Shown here: in pieces, positions 1 through 31,365 of the stretch
Layout of the letters: each line of letters begins with the position of its first letter
How positions within the stretch are numbered: position 1 is the first letter of the stretch
Source of the DNA: a virus
DNA: 64,000 nucleotides
IMG/VR virus record: IMGVR_UViG_3300032242_000818
Location: 1 to 64,000 of that record
Strand: one strand, 5' to 3'
Translations under genes and position numbers: made by a program
Notes under the pieces: model-generated
Told to the model about the DNA's origin: nothing
Database searches by the model: none
The model's input: only the letters and a program-made list of their open reading frames with translations

Positions 1-284
1 GTTTAGGCTGCTAATGCGAACTGTGCGTCGTTTGCGTTTACGTTGTTTTAGTTTTTACATCTACTCTGATGAGTTGTCCACTTCTGTACTTGTTGCCCTG
101 TCGAAACCTAGTCACCCCCATCAGAAACATACTATGGTGAAATTGACTTACATCGTAGAGGTCACGGCTTACCAATCCTGATCCCAACCTTTCGGTTTTG
201 TAGAGATTTAAGTATGCTTCTGGTGGAGGTGGGGAGAATCGAACTCCCGTCCAGAACACTTTTCTAGTTGCTTCATACAACCGT
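1..284 (-). ncRNA. ssrA: tmRNA, circularly permuted two-piece type (partial, runs off the window start)
   Basis: Rescues stalled ribosomes and tags the nascent peptide. In the minus direction the acceptor piece comes first: T arm GGGAG/TTCGATT/CTCCC (232-248), acceptor strand CACCTCC (225-231), then A and CCA (221-224). A spacer of about 100 bases follows (120-220). The coding piece then starts at 119 with GGGGGTG, which pairs with CACCTCC through one G-U, followed by GACTAGGTTTCGACAGGG as in standard tmRNA 5' ends. The tag frame lies at 3-35. This order (3' part, spacer, 5' part) defines permuted tmRNA. The 3' end of the coding piece is outside the window. The spacer contains no other gene that I can see. 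Confidence 0.93.
3..35 (-). other. tmRNA tag reading frame (ANDAQFALAA)
   Basis: The codons GCA AAC GAC GCA CAG TTC GCA TTA GCA GCC are followed by TAA at 3-5 and encode ANDAQFALAA. The ALAA end is the usual ClpXP/ClpAP degron, and the AND start matches bacterial tags. The resume codon GCA (33-35) is assigned by alignment with known tags; two more sense codons (GTA AAC) precede it in frame. Confidence 0.9.
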
Positions 285-290
285 ATCACT

Positions 291-319
291 ATTATACATT
301 ATTTATTCTTACTTGTCAA
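291..319 (-). promoter_or_regulatory. Consensus sigma-70 promoter of the tmRNA
   Basis: TTGACA (314-319), 17-base spacer, TATAAT (291-296). This perfect consensus predicts a start near 284, just upstream of the acceptor piece. Confidence 0.8.
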
Positions 320-1026
320 ATATCGATTGAACCAACATTTGCAAATTCTTTTAGAAATTCATAAGTCTTATCTGTTGTAATACCAGTTGTAACCAAAGTA
401 AATCTAGGATTACGACCAGCATTTGCTGTACAGTGAGGTACGTGTTTCCAATCAAAGGTATGAACATCACCTTCCTTCCAATGGGTATAGACATGGTTGC
501 CATATTGGTAGAAATGTCCAGGCTCCCAGTCAGAAAGCATAATAACAATGCGCATAATTCTGCTATGGTCAGAAGGATAAATTCTACCCAACTTATCAAT
601 GTGCATATTAAAGACTTCACCTACTACTTGCATATGCGTTTTATCGTGGCCATTTTCAAGACCAATCATATTACATATCTTTTGTAACTTAGGTGTTAAT
701 GAAGCACCCATATGACAGATACTCATAGCAGGATTACCGCCACCTTGTTCAATATCATATTCCTCAGCTTCAATCCAATTATTTGGAGGAGTTTCAGTTC
801 CACCATCACCACGACTGGTTTTTGCACCAAAGATACGAGTGCGCCATGAAGCAGAATTAGAATTTTGTTTGATCCATTCTCTTTCTTCAGAGAAATCGCT
901 ATTGAATCTTCCGAGACCTTTGACACAATCCCAACGTGGATCAAAACGATTTACATCGAAATGATATTGGGATTGGTTTTTTGAAATTTCCTCGAAAGAA
1001 CTTTTTTTAAGTTCTACGAATTCCAT
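316..1026 (-). CDS. Fe(II)/2OG-dependent oxygenase (beta-hydroxylase-like)
   Basis: 236 aa. The jelly-roll metal site is visible as H142-x-D144 (in FNMHIDKLG), distal H198 (VPHCTANAG) and R208, the usual 2OG-binding arginine. This resembles the aspartyl/asparaginyl beta-hydroxylase-like branch; the substrate is unknown. The start codon is one base after the stop of the TctC-like gene (TGA-A-ATG), so the two genes are co-transcribed. It is one of 17 such oxygenases in the window. Confidence 0.8.
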   Translation of the reverse strand: MEFVELKKSSFEEISKNQSQYHFDVNRFDPRWDCVKGLGRFNSDFSEEREWIKQNSNSASWRTRIFGAKTSRGDGGTETPPNNWIEAEEYDIEQGGGNPAMSICHMGASLTPKLQKICNMIGLENGHDKTHMQVVGEVFNMHIDKLGRIYPSDHSRIMRIVIMLSDWEPGHFYQYGNHVYTHWKEGDVHTFDWKHVPHCTANAGRNPRFTLVTTGITTDKTYEFLKEFANVGSIDI

Positions 1027-26559: not shown

Positions 26560-27033
26560 TTATGCTGCCATATATGATTTATATCTATCAGCAGCATATG
26601 ATGCAGCGAATGCTTTTGGCTTTACCATTGGTACTACATTACACATACCTTTGATATAACCAACTGCTTCATTTATAACGCATGAAGATCCATGCATTTC
26701 ATTTGGGTTAATATCCAGATGAACTTCCACTTCACGATCTTCCAATACATCATGTAATTTTAAATACAATTCCGCAATCTTATAAACTTCATTCATTAGA
26801 CGCATACGTGGCTTGTCTCGTTTCTGATCCCAGTCACGTTCACGAACTACTTCACCAAAAATTTTACAGCCATTGTTTCCATTGATATGAACAACAACAA
26901 CCATAATGTAATCTGCGTACCAATCTTTTCCTATTAGAAATCGTTCAGAGTCACCACCGATATAAACTTTGGTTTCTGGTGTCTGTGCCATGATGAATTC
27001 TCTAACTTCATCAATGTTGATCGCTTTACGCAT
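26560..27033 (-). CDS. RNase H-like protein, YkuK/DUF458 family
   Basis: 157 aa. VYIGGDSER at the first strand, EVVRERDWDQ, the acidic EVHLDINPNE and C-terminal VKPKAFAASYAADRYKS match the YkuK family. Predicted nuclease fold; in vivo role unknown. AGAGG precedes ATG 27033. It lies just downstream of the tRNA cluster. Confidence 0.8.
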   Translation of the reverse strand: MRKAINIDEVREFIMAQTPETKVYIGGDSERFLIGKDWYADYIMVVVVHINGNNGCKIFGEVVRERDWDQKRDKPRMRLMNEVYKIAELYLKLHDVLEDREVEVHLDINPNEMHGSSCVINEAVGYIKGMCNVVPMVKPKAFAASYAADRYKSYMAA

Positions 27034-27067: not shown

Positions 27068-27141
27068 TGGAGCGGAGTGAGAGAATCGAACTCTCAACAA
27101 CAGATTGGAAATCTGTAGTTTTACCATTAAACTAATCCCGC
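27068..27141 (-). tRNA. tRNA-Gly(TCC)
   Basis: 74 nt, acceptor starts GCGGGAT, anticodon loop TTTCCAA, encoded CCA. Last gene of the cluster in the direction of transcription. Confidence 0.95.
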
Positions 27142-27144
27142 AAT

Positions 27145-27218
27145 TGGCATCCCGATAGGGACTCGAACCCCAACCAACAGTTTTGGAGACTGCTATGCTG
27201 CCATTACACCATCGAGAT
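27145..27218 (-). tRNA. tRNA-Trp(CCA)
   Basis: 74 nt, acceptor ATCTCGA/TCGGGAT, anticodon loop CTCCAAA, G73, encoded CCA. Confidence 0.95.
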
Positions 27219-27222
27219 ACAT

Positions 27223-27298
27223 TGGTGCCCTTGGACGGATTCGAACCGCCCACCTACTGATTACTAATCAGTTGCTCTACCAAATGAGCTACAAGGGC
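27223..27298 (-). tRNA. tRNA-Thr(AGT)
   Basis: 76 nt, acceptor GCCCTTG, stem ACTGA/TCAGT, loop TTAGTAA, which places A at position 34. Bacteria rarely use A34 outside Arg(ACG). Encoded CCA. Confidence 0.88.
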
Positions 27299-27302
27299 AA
27301 AC

Positions 27303-27377
27303 TGGTGGTGATGAGTGGAATCGAGCCACTAACCTACTCCGTATGAAGGAGTTGCACTACCGTTGTGCTACATCACC
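27303..27377 (-). tRNA. tRNA-Met(CAT), elongator-type
   Basis: 75 nt, acceptor GGTGATG/CATCACC (G1-C72, so not an initiator), loop TTCATAC, encoded CCA. Ile(k2CAT) cannot be excluded. Confidence 0.88.
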
Positions 27378-27401
27378 ATTGTTGAACGTACTGTTATGTG
27401 T

Positions 27402-27467
27402 TTAGTTGGCAGCTTTAAATTCCTGCCACCAGATCCTCAAGCATTTCAATCTATGATGGGTGGTCAT
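27402..27467 (-). CDS. Possible microprotein, 21 aa, in the tRNA cluster gap
   Basis: The 180-base gap 27378-27558 has no tRNA. It holds ATG 27467 with GGAG 7 bases upstream, encoding MTTHHRLKCLRIWWQEFKAA plus one residue. Weak; the gap may be RNA or degraded sequence. Confidence 0.25.
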   Translation of the reverse strand: MTTHHRLKCLRIWWQEFKAAN

Positions 27468-27558
27468 AAATTCTCTCCAGATAATGGACGCTGTCTTGAC
27501 TGGCGATTATCTTCCCTAACAGTTGGGATGCCCTTTCTTTTGCTCACACATTCAACAA

Positions 27559-27641
27559 TGGTGCCCCAAGAGAGACTCGAACTCTCACACCGAAGTACTG
27601 GCTTCTAAGACCAGCGTGTCTACCAATTCCACCATCGGGGC
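27559..27641 (-). tRNA. tRNA-Leu(TAG)
   Basis: 83 nt with a long variable arm, acceptor GCCCCGA, loop CTTAGAA, encoded CCA. Confidence 0.95.
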
Positions 27642-27648
27642 ATTCATT

Positions 27649-27726
27649 TGGTTGCAGAGGTTGGATTCGAACCAACGATTTCATGGCTTATGAGACCAGA
27701 CGGATAGACCACTTCCATACTCTGCG
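27649..27726 (-). tRNA. tRNA-fMet(CAT), initiator
   Basis: 78 nt. Acceptor CGCAGAG/CTCTGCA leaves C1 and A72 unpaired, the initiator hallmark. Loop CTCATAA. The three G-C pairs usual in the initiator anticodon stem are not conserved. Encoded CCA. Confidence 0.85.
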
Positions 27727-27745
27727 ATAACTTACTACTTATAAT

Positions 27746-27820
27746 TGGCTCCAGAGGCAGGGATCGAACCTACGACCAATTGATTAACAGTCAACTGCAC
27801 TACCGCTGTGCTACTCTGGA
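27746..27820 (-). tRNA. tRNA-Asn(GTT)
   Basis: 75 nt, acceptor TCCAGAG, loop CTGTTAA, G73, encoded CCA. Confidence 0.95.
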
Positions 27821-27827
27821 ATAAAAC

Positions 27828-27902
27828 TGGCGACTCGTAGGAGAATCGAACTCCTGTGTCCTGCTAGACAGGCAGGCATAATAACCATTATATTAACGAG
27901 CC
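27828..27902 (-). tRNA. tRNA-Asp(GTC)
   Basis: 75 nt, acceptor GGCTCGT, stem CCT GC/GCAGG, loop CTGTCTA, G73, encoded CCA. Confidence 0.95.
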
Positions 27903-27908
27903 AAAAAA

Positions 27909-28001
27909 TGGTGGAGCAACTTGGAGTCGAACCAAGATTGTTTACCCAGAGGGACGAGATTTACAGTCTCGGGATGCACACGCCATAGCATCAATTGCTC
28001 C
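27909..28001 (-). tRNA. tRNA-Tyr(GTA)
   Basis: 93 nt with a long variable arm, acceptor GGAGCAA, loop CTGTAAA, encoded CCA. Its 5' end is 4 bases from structured RNA A. Confidence 0.94.
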
Positions 28002-28005
28002 ATGA

Positions 28006-28126
28006 TATTAGTTTAGATGACGCACTATTTGCTATGCTCAACGGAATTAGCTGCAGCATTACCGTTTCTATACATAGTTAGGGAGGGTTGACGTTTACCC
28101 AATCGCTTACGTCATCTAAACTAATA
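28006..28126 (-). ncRNA. Structured RNA A between tRNA genes (unknown)
   Basis: 121 nt bounded by a perfect 17-bp inverted repeat, 28006-28022 with 28110-28126 (TATTAGTTTAGATGACG and its complement). Inside: CTATG/CATAG (28032-28036, 28073-28077) enclosing AACGG/CCGTT and the palindrome GCTGCAGC, then GGGT/ACCC. No cloverleaf, no ORF. T4 has two stable RNAs of unknown function (RNA C and D) in its tRNA cluster; this may be an analogue. Confidence 0.65.
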
Positions 28127-28130
28127 CCAC

Positions 28131-28343
28131 ATTTAATTACACTGGGATGGTAGACAACAATCTGTTCAACAGTTTACCACGTCATCGTCTGACGATTGGT
28201 TGTTACCACATTACCTTCCAGTTTTGTCCAGCGTCCTCCTGATATTATCTCAAGGTTTCTTGTGTCTATGATCGGTTGGATCGGCACCCAACATTGCGAA
28301 TCATAGAACACCTACTGGCACTGGCAACCCAATGCAATTAAAT
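28131..28343 (-). ncRNA. Structured RNA B between tRNA genes (unknown)
   Basis: 213 nt closed by a 16-bp helix, 28328-28343 with 28131-28146, whose strands differ from exact complements only at two G-U pairs, the mark of a conserved RNA helix. Inside: TCTATGAT/ATCATAGA enclosing GTTGG/CCAAC, ATCGT/ACGAT, and ACAACAATC pairing with GATTGGTTGT around a bulge. It starts 1 base after the CCA of tRNA-Glu. No ORF seen. Function unknown. Confidence 0.68.
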
Positions 28344-28344
28344 C

Positions 28345-28420
28345 TGGTACTCGGTGGGGGAATCGAACCCCTCCTTCCTGCCGTGAAAGGGCAGTGTCCT
28401 AGCCGATAGACGAACCGAGC
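28345..28420 (-). tRNA. tRNA-Glu(TTC)
   Basis: 76 nt, acceptor GCTCGGT, stem CTGCC/GGCAG, loop CTTTCAC, encoded CCA. First tRNA after the internal promoter at 28540-28568. Confidence 0.95.
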
Positions 28421-28539
28421 ATGGTGGTGATTTAGTTTTTTGTCATCTGAACTTCACCAAACTTGACATTATGCCTCATGCACCGTATTTACCGTTGACT
28501 TAGAGAGGACTTTTGATTAATTTCTCAACCTAAGACATT
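28421..28539 (-). other. Leader region downstream of the internal cluster promoter
   Basis: No gene is evident between this promoter and tRNA-Glu. Only a 15-codon ORF without an RBS is seen. It probably forms the 5' leader removed by tRNA processing. Confidence 0.5.
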
Positions 28540-28568
28540 ATTATACCTCAACTTGCTATAAAAGTCAA
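28540..28568 (-). promoter_or_regulatory. Internal promoter of the tRNA cluster
   Basis: TTGACT (28563-28568), 17 bases, TATAAT (28540-28545). Drives tRNA-Glu, RNAs A and B, and the tRNAs down to 27068. Confidence 0.75.
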
Positions 28569-28604
28569 GCGATATTTTTAATCCCTTATTGCAAGAAAGG
28601 TTAT

Positions 28605-28678
28605 TGGAGTAAGTGACAGGAATCGAACCTGCTTCCATGGATTTGCAATCCAGTACCTGTCCAACTGGTTCCACTTAC
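28605..28678 (-). tRNA. tRNA-Cys(GCA)
   Basis: 74 nt, acceptor GTAAGTG/CACTTAC, loop TTGCAAA, T73, encoded CCA. Confidence 0.94.
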
Positions 28679-28683
28679 ATTAA

Positions 28684-28758
28684 TGGTGGGCTCAAGTGGA
28701 TTCGAACCACTACCTTATCAATTATGAGTTGACGGCACTACCTTTATGCTATGAGCCC
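28684..28758 (-). tRNA. tRNA-Met or Ile2 (CAT)
   Basis: 75 nt, acceptor GGGCTCA/TGAGCCC, loop CTCATAA, encoded CCA. Third CAT tRNA of the set. One of the two non-initiator CAT tRNAs may be Ile2 reading AUA after lysidine modification. Confidence 0.85.
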
Positions 28759-28764
28759 AACAAC

Positions 28765-28839
28765 TGGCGCGACATGCAGGAATCGAACCCACATTCGTAG
28801 GGTAGAAGCCTACTGTATTATCCATTATACTAATGCCGC
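28765..28839 (-). tRNA. tRNA-Arg(TCT)
   Basis: 75 nt, acceptor GCGGCAT, stem GTAGG/CCTAC, loop CTTCTAC, G73, encoded CCA. Confidence 0.95.
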
Positions 28840-28845
28840 AAAAAT

Positions 28846-28931
28846 TGGTACGAGTGGAGGGACTTGAACCCTCAATCCATTACTGGCGACAGATTTTAAG
28901 TCTGTAGTGTATACCATTCCACCACACTCGC
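28846..28931 (-). tRNA. tRNA-Leu(TAA)
   Basis: 86 nt with a long variable arm, acceptor GCGAGTG, loop CTTAAAA, encoded CCA. Confidence 0.95.
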
Positions 28932-28940
28932 AACTAACAC

Positions 28941-29029
28941 TGGCGGAAGATGTGAGAGTTGAACTCACTCACCGATTTAACTCGATGACAGATTAGCAAT
29001 CTGCTGCATTACCGTCCTGCCCATCTTCC
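28941..29029 (-). tRNA. tRNA-Ser(GCT)
   Basis: 89 nt with a long variable arm, acceptor GGAAGAT, loop TTGCTAA, G73, encoded CCA. Confidence 0.95.
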
Positions 29030-29035
29030 TAACTT

Positions 29036-29111
29036 TGGTACCCAATAGAGGAATTGAACCTCTACCTCTGCGTTCGTAGCACAGTGTGATCATCCATTTC
29101 ACCAATCGGGC
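29036..29111 (-). tRNA. tRNA-Arg(ACG)
   Basis: 76 nt, acceptor GCCCGAT, stem CTGTG/CGCAG, loop CTACGAA (A34, expected to become inosine), encoded CCA. Confidence 0.94.
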
Positions 29112-29116
29112 ATATT

Positions 29117-29208
29117 TGGCGGAAAGCAGAGGAGTCGAACCCCATCCCATTTCTGAGAACCCAGTTTTCAAGGCTGGTCGGCGCACCAACGCACCTGCAT
29201 TACTTTCC
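29117..29208 (-). tRNA. tRNA-Ser(TGA)
   Basis: 92 nt with a long variable arm, acceptor GGAAAGT, loop CTTGAAA, G73, encoded CCA. The last pair of the anticodon stem is C-A. Confidence 0.92.
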
Positions 29209-29213
29209 ATATT

Positions 29214-29288
29214 TGGTACCTCGTGACAGATTCGAACTGCCGACCTTCTCCGTGTAAAGGAGACACTCTACCACTGAGTTAACGAGGC
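29214..29288 (-). tRNA. tRNA-Val(TAC)
   Basis: 75 nt, acceptor GCCTCGT, loop TTTACAC, encoded CCA. Confidence 0.95.
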
Positions 29289-29294
29289 ATATTT

Positions 29295-29369
29295 TGGTGG
29301 ACCGTAAGAGAATCGAACTCTTACCTCTGACGTGCAAAGCCAGCGTGCTCCCATTATCACTAACAGCCC
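29295..29369 (-). tRNA. tRNA-Ala(TGC)
   Basis: 75 nt, acceptor GGGCTGT with two G-U pairs, stem CTGGC/GTCAG, loop TTTGCAC, encoded CCA. Confidence 0.93.
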
Positions 29370-29376
29370 AAAACAT

Positions 29377-29453
<77 letters not shown>

Positions 29454-29461
29454 ATAAAAAC

Positions 29462-29535
29462 TGGTGCCCCATGACAGAATCGAACTGCCGTAACCTGATT
29501 ACAAAACAGGTGTAATACCATTATACTAATAGGGC
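29462..29535 (-). tRNA. tRNA-Thr(TGT)
   Basis: 74 nt, acceptor GCCCTAT, loop TTTGTAA, encoded CCA. The last pair of the anticodon stem is a T-T mismatch. Confidence 0.92.
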
Positions 29536-29536
29536 A

Positions 29537-29610
29537 TGGTCCTCTCGACAAGAATTGAACTTGTAATGGACGCTTATCAAGCGTCTGTTATACCATTTAA
29601 CTACAAGAGG
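29537..29610 (-). tRNA. tRNA-Ile(GAT)
   Basis: 74 nt, acceptor CCTCTTG, stem GACGC/GCGTC, loop TTGATAA, encoded CCA. Begins 1 base from tRNA-Thr(TGT). Confidence 0.94.
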
Positions 29611-29615
29611 ATATT

Positions 29616-29691
29616 TGGTGCTGCCTAGTAGAATCGAACTACTTTCCGAGGTTCTTCAGACCCCTGCTATGACCACATCAGCTAAAGCAGC
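29616..29691 (-). tRNA. tRNA-Phe(GAA)
   Basis: 76 nt, acceptor GCTGCTT, loop CTGAAGA, encoded CCA. Confidence 0.95.
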
Positions 29692-29693
29692 AT

Positions 29694-29768
29694 TGGGGTG
29701 TCGTATGAGAATTGAACTCATGATGACGGAATCACAATCCGTAGTTTTACCACTAAACTAACAACACC
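29694..29768 (-). tRNA. tRNA-His(GTG)
   Basis: 75 nt including the encoded G-1, which pairs with C73 as required for His. Loop TTGTGAT, encoded CCA. Confidence 0.94.
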
Positions 29769-29773
29769 ATAAT

Positions 29774-29847
29774 TGGTAGGGGCACAGAGAATTGAACTCT
29801 GGTTAATAGGTTAAAAGCCTACTACTTTACCACTAAGTTATACCCCC
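29774..29847 (-). tRNA. tRNA-Lys(TTT)
   Basis: 74 nt, acceptor GGGGGTA/TGCCCCT, loop CTTTTAA, encoded CCA. Confidence 0.94.
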
Positions 29848-29855
29848 AAAACTTA

Positions 29856-29950
29856 CCAAACAAAAACACATTGAGTAGGAGTCGAACCTACATTTAATGC
29901 CTTATGAACACCATCCTGGCCAATTAGATGATCAATGTGTTTTTGTTTGG
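29856..29950 (-). ncRNA. tRNA-like element with 19-bp extended acceptor helix, no CCA
   Basis: The core 29868-29938 (71 nt) folds as a cloverleaf: acceptor ACATTGA/TCAATGT, D stem ATCT/AGGA, T arm GTAGG/TTCGACT/CCTAC, anticodon arm GGTGT/GCATT with G-U pairs. Its loop TCATAAG has C instead of U33. No CCA follows. The acceptor helix continues for 12 more pairs, a perfect 19-bp inverted repeat (29856-29874 with 29932-29950) that includes the CCA end of tRNA-Gln. It is either a degenerate tRNA or a dedicated tRNA-like RNA. Confidence 0.62.
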
Positions 29951-30021
29951 CACCCGAAATAAGAATCGAACTTATACTAACAGAGTCAAAGTCTGCTGTG
30001 CTACCACTACACCATTCGGGA
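29948..30021 (-). tRNA. tRNA-Gln(TTG)
   Basis: 74 nt, loop CTTTGAC, G73, encoded CCA. The first acceptor pair is open (U1, U72), as the opened first pair of Gln tRNAs requires. First tRNA of the cluster. Confidence 0.93.
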
Positions 30022-30073: not shown

Positions 30074-30105
30074 AAAACCCTCTAACTTTTCAGGTAGAGG
30101 GTTTT
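30074..30105 (-). terminator. Strong rho-independent terminator upstream of the tRNA cluster
   Basis: 11-bp stem AAAACCCTCTA/TAGAGGGTTTT, 10-base loop, followed in the minus direction by TTGTTTTTGG. Ends the short transcript from 30262-30290; tRNA transcription would need read-through or anti-termination. Confidence 0.8.
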
Positions 30106-30256
30106 GGGAAATAAACTAGTATTTGTTTACTTTACTTTCCAAAACCCCCTCGATCAAACGCATATGATACATTAATCTCTGGGCGTGAGCATGTCCAGCC
30201 ACTTAATAGTGGTAGATGTTTATTCATCTGTCTGGATATGTTTAACGATTTCATAG
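30106..30256 (-). ncRNA. Candidate small structured RNA with a three-way junction
   Basis: Between the promoter at 30262-30290 and the terminator at 30074-30105. CATATCCAG (30232-30240) pairs with CTGGACATG (30190-30198) with one A-C mismatch, closing two perfect hairpins, AGATG/CATCT (30214-30229) and CCACT/AGTGG (30199-30212), a three-way junction. With the terminator it makes a transcript of about 185 nt. Confidence 0.55.
30132..30254 (-). CDS. Possible leaderless microprotein, 40 aa
   Basis: ATG 30254 lies 7 bases after TATAAT. MKSLNISRQMNKHLPLLSGW ... YAFDRGGFGK to TAA 30132, then the terminator. It occupies the same bases as the three-way junction, so this may be a dual-function or purely non-coding RNA. 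Confidence 0.35.
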   Translation of the reverse strand: MKSLNISRQMNKHLPLLSGWTCSRPEINVSYAFDRGGFGK

Positions 30257-30261
30257 GATTG

Positions 30262-30290
30262 ATTATACTACAGTTTTCTTTGAAAGTAAA
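30262..30290 (-). promoter_or_regulatory. Early promoter (proximal) upstream of the tRNA cluster
   Basis: TTTACT (30285-30290), 17 bases, TATAAT (30262-30267). Confidence 0.75.
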
Positions 30291-30361
30291 GCGAAATTTT
30301 AATAACCTTACAATTCGTAGGGTTATGTTTTATTTAGGAGTGTTTCTCACCTCTAGCACTT

Positions 30362-30390
30362 ATTATACGATACTATTTGATAAAAGTCAA
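30362..30390 (-). promoter_or_regulatory. Early promoter (distal) upstream of the tRNA cluster
   Basis: TTGACT (30385-30390), 17 bases, TATAAT (30362-30367). A weak hairpin (AACC/GGTT near 30305-30326) lies between it and the next promoter. Confidence 0.73.
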
Positions 30391-30417
30391 GTATTATTTT
30401 GACTTTATTTTTGCATT

Positions 30418-31365
30418 TTATGAGATTATACCGTTGTCGTATTTTACCATTCCAGTAAATAATTTGTATCCAATACCAAAACGCATATCTTTTTTCTTCT
30501 CTAGAGTAAAGTTACCAACACCATCAATAATTTTAATTTCCATATCATCAATTTCATTACATTTACTTTTTAGGTAAACAATATCAATATTATTAGCAAC
30601 ATTAGAAATATTGAAATGCGGTACTGTTATTTTTGATGGTATTGAATATTCGCCCCTGTTAATTGGCATATGCTTAAAAATTCTTTTATCATTAATGGTT
30701 GGATCTGTTATAGTTATTTTAAATTCTATATTATTATCACAATCTTTAGATTGCAATTCAATTGGGCAAAACATCCATGTCCAATTTGGCTGAAAAATTT
30801 GTAAGTTTTGATTATCTAAATCAATAGTAGCTGGTATATTAGTAACAACGCATATATTATGTATATCTCGTTGATGTTCATTAATTGCTTTTCTTGGTTT
30901 TGTTACTTGATAGACAAAATTAGTAAAGTTATGTTTTTCTGATGGTACAAATATCCTTAGAGGAATTTGACCACATTTATCAACTGGTTTATAATTTAAA
31001 ATATGCGGTCCATCACCATTTGGTTCAGTTCTATGTTTTGACAACTCTAACAGAGAACACATATCACTGAATTTCAACTCTTTCGTTGTAGGATCCCAAA
31101 ATTTAATGTTATTATCATAGATATCAGTTGTTTCACAAACAGAATTATATGGTGTCCAAAAAGTTTGGTCGGCATAACTTGGATGTTTTTTGAATTCTTC
31201 TAATGATAATGTTATACTAAAAATTGTTTCATTATTCCTAAGATTTATAAATCTATATCGAAAAGTTTCTGGAGTTACAAAAATATCATTTAAGAACATA
31301 GTTTCTTCTTGGTAGTATTTTAACCAGTTATTCCAAGAACATCTACTAGCATATACATGCATCAT
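30418..31365 (-). CDS. Hypothetical protein
   Basis: 315 aa, beta-rich, aromatic, no motif recognised. It begins MMHVYASRCSWNNWLKYYQE; the C-terminus has a KKKDMRFGIGYKLFTG segment. ATGA overlap with the dCMP deaminase stop. Last gene of its operon before the tandem promoters. Confidence 0.72.
   Translation of the reverse strand: MMHVYASRCSWNNWLKYYQEETMFLNDIFVTPETFRYRFINLRNNETIFSITLSLEEFKKHPSYADQTFWTPYNSVCETTDIYDNNIKFWDPTTKELKFSDMCSLLELSKHRTEPNGDGPHILNYKPVDKCGQIPLRIFVPSEKHNFTNFVYQVTKPRKAINEHQRDIHNICVVTNIPATIDLDNQNLQIFQPNWTWMFCPIELQSKDCDNNIEFKITITDPTINDKRIFKHMPINRGEYSIPSKITVPHFNISNVANNIDIVYLKSKCNEIDDMEIKIIDGVGNFTLEKKKDMRFGIGYKLFTGMVKYDNGIIS

Follow-up and report, generated by a model that had tools for sequence, protein, structure and literature searches.

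RNA B, a structured RNA family of phage tRNA clusters with a closing helix completed by the CCA end of the upstream tRNA

The tRNA Cluster and Its Phage

Long tRNA arrays are common among phages, and the stretch of viral DNA analyzed here (hereafter the window), which covers positions 1–64,000 of a 164,717-bp IMG/VR record, contains an array of this kind. ARAGORN predicted 27 tRNA genes in the window, all on the minus strand, with the cluster proper occupying positions 27068–30021; all tRNA, tmRNA, other RNA, leader, and promoter features described below lie on this same strand. A further segment (29118–29208) was overlooked by ARAGORN and is probably a tRNA-Ser(UGA) with a GCCA end, for which Rfam returned only a sub-threshold match to tRNA-Sec (34.9 bits). 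The whole cluster is preceded by a leader (30100–30400), conserved in many relatives by blastn, in which we noted two strong promoter-like boxes (30390–30362 and 30290–30262). A search for relatives of the protein encoded at 30418–31365 found none. Downstream of the cluster lies a gene encoding an RNase H-like protein (26560–27033; PF04308).

The portal, major head protein, tail sheath, terminase, DNA polymerase, and SbcC-like nuclease encoded in the window match phage families, and the nearest cultured relatives by tail sheath are the Methylophilales phage Melnitz and the Pelagibacter phage HTVC008M. Based on these phage-family proteins and tail-sheath relatives, we read the phage as a probable member of the T4 superfamily. 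At the very start of the window (1–333), and cut by it, is a permuted (two-piece) tmRNA gene (RF04321, 127.9 bits; beta_tmRNA, 115.1 bits), of which one relative (L130) carries a complete version at 1476–1864. This fits with the two-piece tmRNA of the Melnitz phage (PMC9004378). Given that the permuted tmRNA is of the beta-proteobacterial type, the host is likely a freshwater beta-proteobacterium.

Within the cluster, a sigma-70-like promoter (TTGACT-17-TATAAT, 28540–28568; 11/12 positions, a consensus match only) stands before tRNA-Glu(UUC) (28345–28420) and the element that is the subject of this work, RNA B (28131–28343). RNA B is 213 nt in length and was delimited on the basis of its fold stability, the homologues found with two covariance models (R1 and R2), and covariation. 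The tRNA-Glu directly upstream ends at 28345, one nucleotide from RNA B, and a second structured RNA, RNA A (28003–28127), begins 3–4 nt downstream when the start of its helix is taken as 28127. Both spacings agree with the initial annotation of this locus, which had been made from the sequence alone and had placed RNA B at 1 base from tRNA-Glu and at 4 bases from RNA A.

Fold and Novelty of RNA B

On the minus strand, in the orientation of the entire tRNA cluster, RNA B folds with a predicted energy of −72.6 kcal/mol (z = −5.28), a stability reached by none of 200 shuffled sequences, compared to −54.3 kcal/mol (z = −1.96) for the plus strand. The closing helix, P1, pairs 28328–28343 with 28131–28146 over 16 bp including two G-U pairs, an exact match to the helix described in the initial annotation. 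The borders proposed there stand for the 213-nt element itself but not for the end of its helix, as the functional helix runs beyond them into the A73-CCA of the tRNA on one side and a UGGU on the other.

The same annotation had set RNA B apart from tRNAs, RNase P RNA, GOLLD, and ROOL, and had named an Infernal search of all Rfam families as a check. At gathering thresholds, no family in Rfam release 15 matches RNA B, and with relaxed filters the only match was a 21-nt stretch attributable to chance (9.9 bits, E = 8.3). There is no match to the tRNA model (RF00005) and no CCA end; the RNase P RNA, GOLLD, and ROOL covariance models likewise returned no match, nor did the 6S and tmRNA models at family threshold. 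In the open-access literature, we found no description of RNA B or of the CCA clamp detailed below. Together with the covariation among its relatives, the lack of an Rfam family upholds the claim of a novel structured RNA within the tRNA cluster: RNA B represents a previously undescribed family of structured noncoding RNAs encoded by phages.

Homologues and Distribution

Using the gene of the RNase H-like protein (PF04308) as bait, we collected 80 related loci, and blastn identified RNA B in about 30 of them. Widening the set with three conserved DNA patterns and the R1 and R2 models brought the family to about 70 distinct homologues of roughly 200–243 nt, all from metagenomic (IMG/VR) viral contigs. 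These scored about 99 to 230 bits with R1, and further full-length copies about 167–232 bits with R2, the E-values from both models being rough. A candidate bacterial copy in Clostridium polynesiense, suggested by the only DNA-pattern match in bacteria, was put down to chance as the model found none. With blastn, three divergent RNA B sequences had no match among 50,697 phage records, and R2 found RNA B to be absent from the Melnitz, HTVC008M, DLP_6, and T4 phages.

RNA B is present as a single copy in each of 10 long, near-complete viral records. In five near-complete records of related phages, R1 found no RNA B, and R2 a weak fragment (22.9 bits) in one; since these relatives lack a full copy, the element would appear to be dispensable or replaceable. 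The upstream neighbor is tRNA-Glu(UUC) at 54 of the 69 homologue loci that have an upstream tRNA, and otherwise tRNA-Gln, Ile, or Ser. Being single copy and conserved in position behind tRNA-Glu(UUC), RNA B looks vertically inherited.

A Structure under Selection

Covariation in relatives, also put forward as a check in the initial annotation, lies far above controls over 59–72 homologues. In an alignment fitted to the covariance model (A2; 72 rows, 69 distinct), which favors its own structure, standard pairs fill 95.4% of pair cells, 41 of 58 pairs show changes on both sides, and covariation is 0.476, compared to 0.183 in shuffled and at most 0.085 in slid structures. Given this bias of A2, a second alignment was made independently with MAFFT (A3; 59 sequences, including 7-nt flanks) and counted on a structure that RNAalifold derived from A3 itself. 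Here, 94.8% of pair cells are standard, 45 of 65 pairs have changed on both sides, and covariation is 0.448 against 0.178 (shuffled) and at most 0.081 (slid controls); the scores are inflated by sequence relatedness, though the margin over both controls is very large. Helix 1 of A3 comprises 21 pairs (98.2% paired), 13 of which have changed on both sides.

The interior combines constant and exchangeable parts. The P4-P5 arm (28262–28311), in which A3 helices 4 and 5 show both-side changes in 17 of 18 pairs, ends in a G(A/C)CG tetraloop (GCCG at 28282–28285); this P5 hairpin loop is GACG or GCCG in 63 of 70 homologues, the other seven carrying GACG aligned as a shorter stem. The P6 module (28235–28255; CCUUGAGAU..AUAUCAGGAGG) is substituted by other modules in relatives. 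Next comes the UAAUGUG strand (28207–28213), nearly invariant over 59 sequences, the first four bases of which are unpaired in the consensus and the remainder of which starts helix 7. The P7-P10 arm (28147–28208) takes three structural types in relatives, and the P9 hairpin within it (28180–28194; CGUCA-GACGA-UGACG) has a constant GACG[A/G/U] loop on a freely covarying stem, with 21 stem/loop combinations and 98.6% pairing of helix 9 in A3. With a mean column identity of 60%, the AG and CA-GAA of the junction, UAAUGU, and GACG are invariant or nearly so outside the helices, and these invariant unpaired bases point at contact sites in a new family whose structure is supported by covariation. 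Most combinations of the P6 types (at least four) with the P8-P10 types (three) occur among the homologues, which suggests that parts have been recombined.

No conserved open frame was found in the homologues, the lengths of which (202–243 nt) are spread over every class modulo 3 and in which open stretches reach at most 32–81 codons. A chance fold, or an inverted repeat at the DNA level without RNA function, could account for the fact that the antisense of RNA B also beats shuffled sequence (mean z of −4.1 across the family), since long inverted repeats are expected to fold well on either strand. This reading is at odds with the greater stability of the sense strand and with an interior that covaries through G-U intermediates far beyond both shuffled and slid controls, and the conserved U-G pairs in P3 (59 of 59) and P1 (45 of 59; both in A3) argue for RNA over DNA symmetry or a palindrome. 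For the interior of RNA B it is already refuted, and as an account of the whole element its probability is negligible. Judged by comparison of the homologues, it is the RNA structure read from the minus strand that has been conserved in RNA B.

The CCA Clamp

Wherever a tRNA lies directly upstream of a homologue, RNA B starts exactly one nucleotide past the tRNA end, and a UGG sits one nucleotide past its own end, so that N73-C-C-A pairs with U-G-G-U. In the window, the two halves of this clamp are the A73-CCA end of tRNA-Glu (28345–28348; 5′ half) and the UGGU at 28126–28129 (3′ half), the latter of which is also the start of the RNA A 5′ arm. As the TGG of that arm thus serves the RNA B clamp as well, there are two competing pairings. 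The single spacer nucleotide between the tRNA and RNA B (28344) lies opposite 28130, and the pair they form, G/G here, is G/G in 32, U/A in 28, and A/U in 10 of 70 homologues, with no other combination. The clamp pairs at −2, −3, −4, and −5 are kept in 69, 70, 70, and 70 of the 70, respectively. Five homologues carry a compensated change from CCA/UGG to CUA/UAG, and upstream of these is a local hairpin and no tRNA. The MFE fold of tRNA-Glu plus RNA B forms the clamp with the cloverleaf intact, and the clamped closing helix has 20–24 paired positions across the family (~22 bp), about two turns of A-form RNA. The closing helix of RNA B is completed by the CCA of the upstream tRNA, which pairs with the UGG beyond the element.

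A clamp of this kind could act in cis as a lock on the tRNA, with RNA B sequestering the CCA of the preceding tRNA and holding back its 3′ maturation or charging until the clamp is opened by a nuclease or a signal. The CCA is always paired and the spacing always 1 nt, as a lock would have it, and clamps with unrelated cores recur behind Gln, Lys, Leu, Glu, Thr, and Asp tRNAs. A pure lock sits poorly with the five CUA/UAG homologues, in which a full core follows a plain hairpin; moreover, a lock would call for much less elaboration and conservation than the core of RNA B shows, and a scan of the window for clamps returned three clamped cassettes (RNA B, RNA C, and a tRNA-like element), leaving most other tRNAs of the operon without one. 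We consider the lock unlikely as the main role of RNA B.

Other Clamped Cassettes

RNA B is a CCA-clamped cassette in the sense proposed here: it begins one nucleotide after a CCA, is closed by a long helix, and has an N-UGG paired with the CCA. For a wider survey, a clamp was scored as a tRNA-CCA, 1 nt, and a 12-nt arm with a partner 50–400 nt downstream, and the trinucleotide opposite CCA was read; this replaced a plain MFE count of clamped inserts, which had been uninformative (109 of 380, versus 73 in shuffles). Such an arm and partner are present at 255 of the 2,028 distinct tRNA-CCA ends in the fetched loci, and the trinucleotide opposite CCA is UGG in 131 of these 255, with the runner-up at 9. 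For RNA B the figure is 60 of 63 and for other inserts 71 of 192, where chance would give about 1 in 64. Among inserts with 12 or more arm pairs and a spacer pair of U/A or A/U, the cores fall into 41 clusters with no evident common core, though the clustering is rough, the counts approximate, and some clusters may be distantly related. More than 20 of the other cassettes, submitted to blastn as one query, had no match in cultured phages.

RNA A, next to RNA B in the window, has a different core, a 20-bp closing helix (z = −6.05), and homologues of its own. In relatives, two or more unrelated cores, of about 155 and 200 nt, occupy this site between outer arms that are almost the same (GGTATTAGTTTAG..CTAAACTAATATCA), again suggesting that parts have been recombined. 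We considered whether the loop of RNA A (ACGUC) might kiss the GACG loops of RNA B and dropped the idea because the RNA A loop is not conserved. RNA C, the third cassette (27376–27558; z = −3.24), is clamped to the CCA of tRNA-Leu(UAG); its UGG reaches into the tRNA-Met that follows, sharing the first two bases of that gene, and the cassette contains a short ATG frame (MTTHHRLKCLRIWWQEFKAAN). A further cassette of the window (29856–29947; z = −6.10), which ARAGORN called tRNA-Tyr(ata), is clamped to the CCA of tRNA-Gln; with an acceptor helix of >20 bp and no CCA end, it is probably a tRNA-like cassette and not a working tRNA. In two other loci (L064 and L068), two clamped cassettes that follow tRNA-Lys and tRNA-Thr have GATGAAAAGACCCTTTACGTC or GGTGAAAAGACCCTTTACGTC in common, a sequence reminiscent of GACGGAAAGACCCC of 23S rRNA and possibly an rRNA-like motif or a chance resemblance.

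Taken at face value, a clamp common to many unrelated cores, and different cores sharing outer arms at one site, could be the mark of selfish or mobile cassettes, moving from one tRNA 3′ end to another and tolerated through neat folding, the fold serving insertion or harmlessness and not the phage. The reassortment of modules and the occurrence of RNA B after tRNA-Glu, Gln, Ile, or Ser would also fit with such a history. Pure selfishness is countered by the single copy and predominant tRNA-Glu(UUC) position of RNA B and by its strongly constrained core with invariant unpaired bases, and no mobility gene or target duplication was identified; we regard this explanation as quite improbable.

A bolder proposal is a general CCA-clamped system, in which dozens of unrelated RNAs of ~50–240 nt, each 1 nt behind a tRNA and closed by a two-turn helix borrowing its CCA, would make up an exchangeable library with a common route of excision or protection. 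We advance this tentatively, at somewhat less than even odds. If true, a tRNA array would be an exchangeable library of small structured RNAs. The clamp itself follows a simple rule, which allows many more of these RNAs to be gathered.

Proposed Mechanism

Our preferred reading, to which we assign a probability of roughly 0.6, is that RNA B is sealed by the ~22-bp helix that uses the tRNA 3′ end, co-transcribed with the tRNAs, excised, and active in trans. RNA B and the tRNAs would be co-transcribed from the sigma-70-type promoter ahead of tRNA-Glu, and the clamp would let RNA B fold into a closed body that stacks on the acceptor stem of the tRNA and offers exonucleases no single-stranded ends. 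The initial annotation had expected tRNA processing to release RNA B, and release by ordinary tRNA processing is plausible; with the CCA paired into the RNA B helix and a gap of only 1 nt, exonucleolytic trimming alone would be insufficient and an endonucleolytic cut would be needed. The two-turn duplex could be cut by an RNase III-like enzyme, comparable to the stems around rRNAs, freeing tRNA-Glu from RNA B; RNase III is a candidate solely because of the helix length. RNase P acting at the next tRNA could help to separate a stable RNA of about 210 nt. From the shared architecture, in which the tRNA CCA supplies a strand of the closing helix, a specific processing event can be predicted.

Once mature, RNA B would act in trans in the infected cell. 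Putative docking sites are the two GACG-type loops that stay constant, the junction that contains GAAA, and the UAAUGUG strand, and the exchangeable P6 and P8-P10 arms may tune the RNA to the host. The excision and the function are both inferred. Speaking against a free RNA B, the clamped CCA could keep the tRNA joined, or the element may serve its tRNA in cis.

Comparison with Known Systems

To our knowledge, the non-tRNA RNAs of phage tRNA arrays (T4 RNA C and RNA D, GOLLD, and ROOL) have had no known function for decades. The closest in setting are T4 RNA C and RNA D (species 1 and 2 stable RNAs), which, like RNA B, are RNAs other than tRNAs that lie next to the tRNA genes of a T4-type phage. 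They are late-expressed, have been detected by northern blot, and have unknown functions (PMC9697503; PMC3014915). GenBank annotates RNA D as beginning 1 nt past the CCA of tRNA-Arg, with RNA C following 6 nt later, an order resembling that of RNA B and RNA A. At 119 and 139 nt, the T4 RNAs are shorter than the 213 nt of RNA B, and RNA D has no closing-helix fold (z = −0.83) and no UGG after it. As a candidate homologue of RNA B, RNA D was rejected, with no match from R1 run unfiltered on the T4 region or from R2 on the T4 genome.

GOLLD is a structured phage RNA of unknown function located in or near tRNA islands, like RNA B, with a conserved and a less conserved region; it is often >800 nt and assembles into a 14-mer cage (PMC12286853). 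RNA B has no match to the GOLLD model, and GOLLD is not known to carry a CCA clamp. ROOL, an RNA of phages and prophages near tRNA islands, is reported to be very abundant and non-essential in one host (PMC12286853); at about 660 nt it is unrelated to RNA B in sequence and structure, and RNA B has no Rfam match to it. The RNA B family (202–243 nt) falls outside the about 600–900 nt that would mark a GOLLD or ROOL RNA, these two being about 3–4 times longer (PMC12286853). The permuted tmRNA, also encoded in the window, is a structured RNA of the same phage group (e.g., Melnitz; PMC9004378), and tmRNA models do not match RNA B.

An identical genomic niche, the T4 arrangement of RNA D followed by RNA C, and the tRNA-like cassette nearby in the window might be taken to indicate that RNA B is a very diverged GOLLD, ROOL, T4 RNA C/D, or tRNA/tmRNA derivative. 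Set against this are an Rfam search with nothing beyond chance, covariance models that find nothing in T4, the absence of a closing helix or UGG clamp in RNA D, and the greater length of GOLLD and ROOL, and we hold such a derivation to be very improbable.

Pairing with the NCCA end of a tRNA is itself familiar from the T-box antiterminator bulge (UGGN) and from L15 of RNase P (GGU), both of which pair in trans with a separate tRNA. RNA B differs from these in that its tRNA is covalently attached, one nucleotide upstream, and in that the pairing closes a ~22-bp helix.
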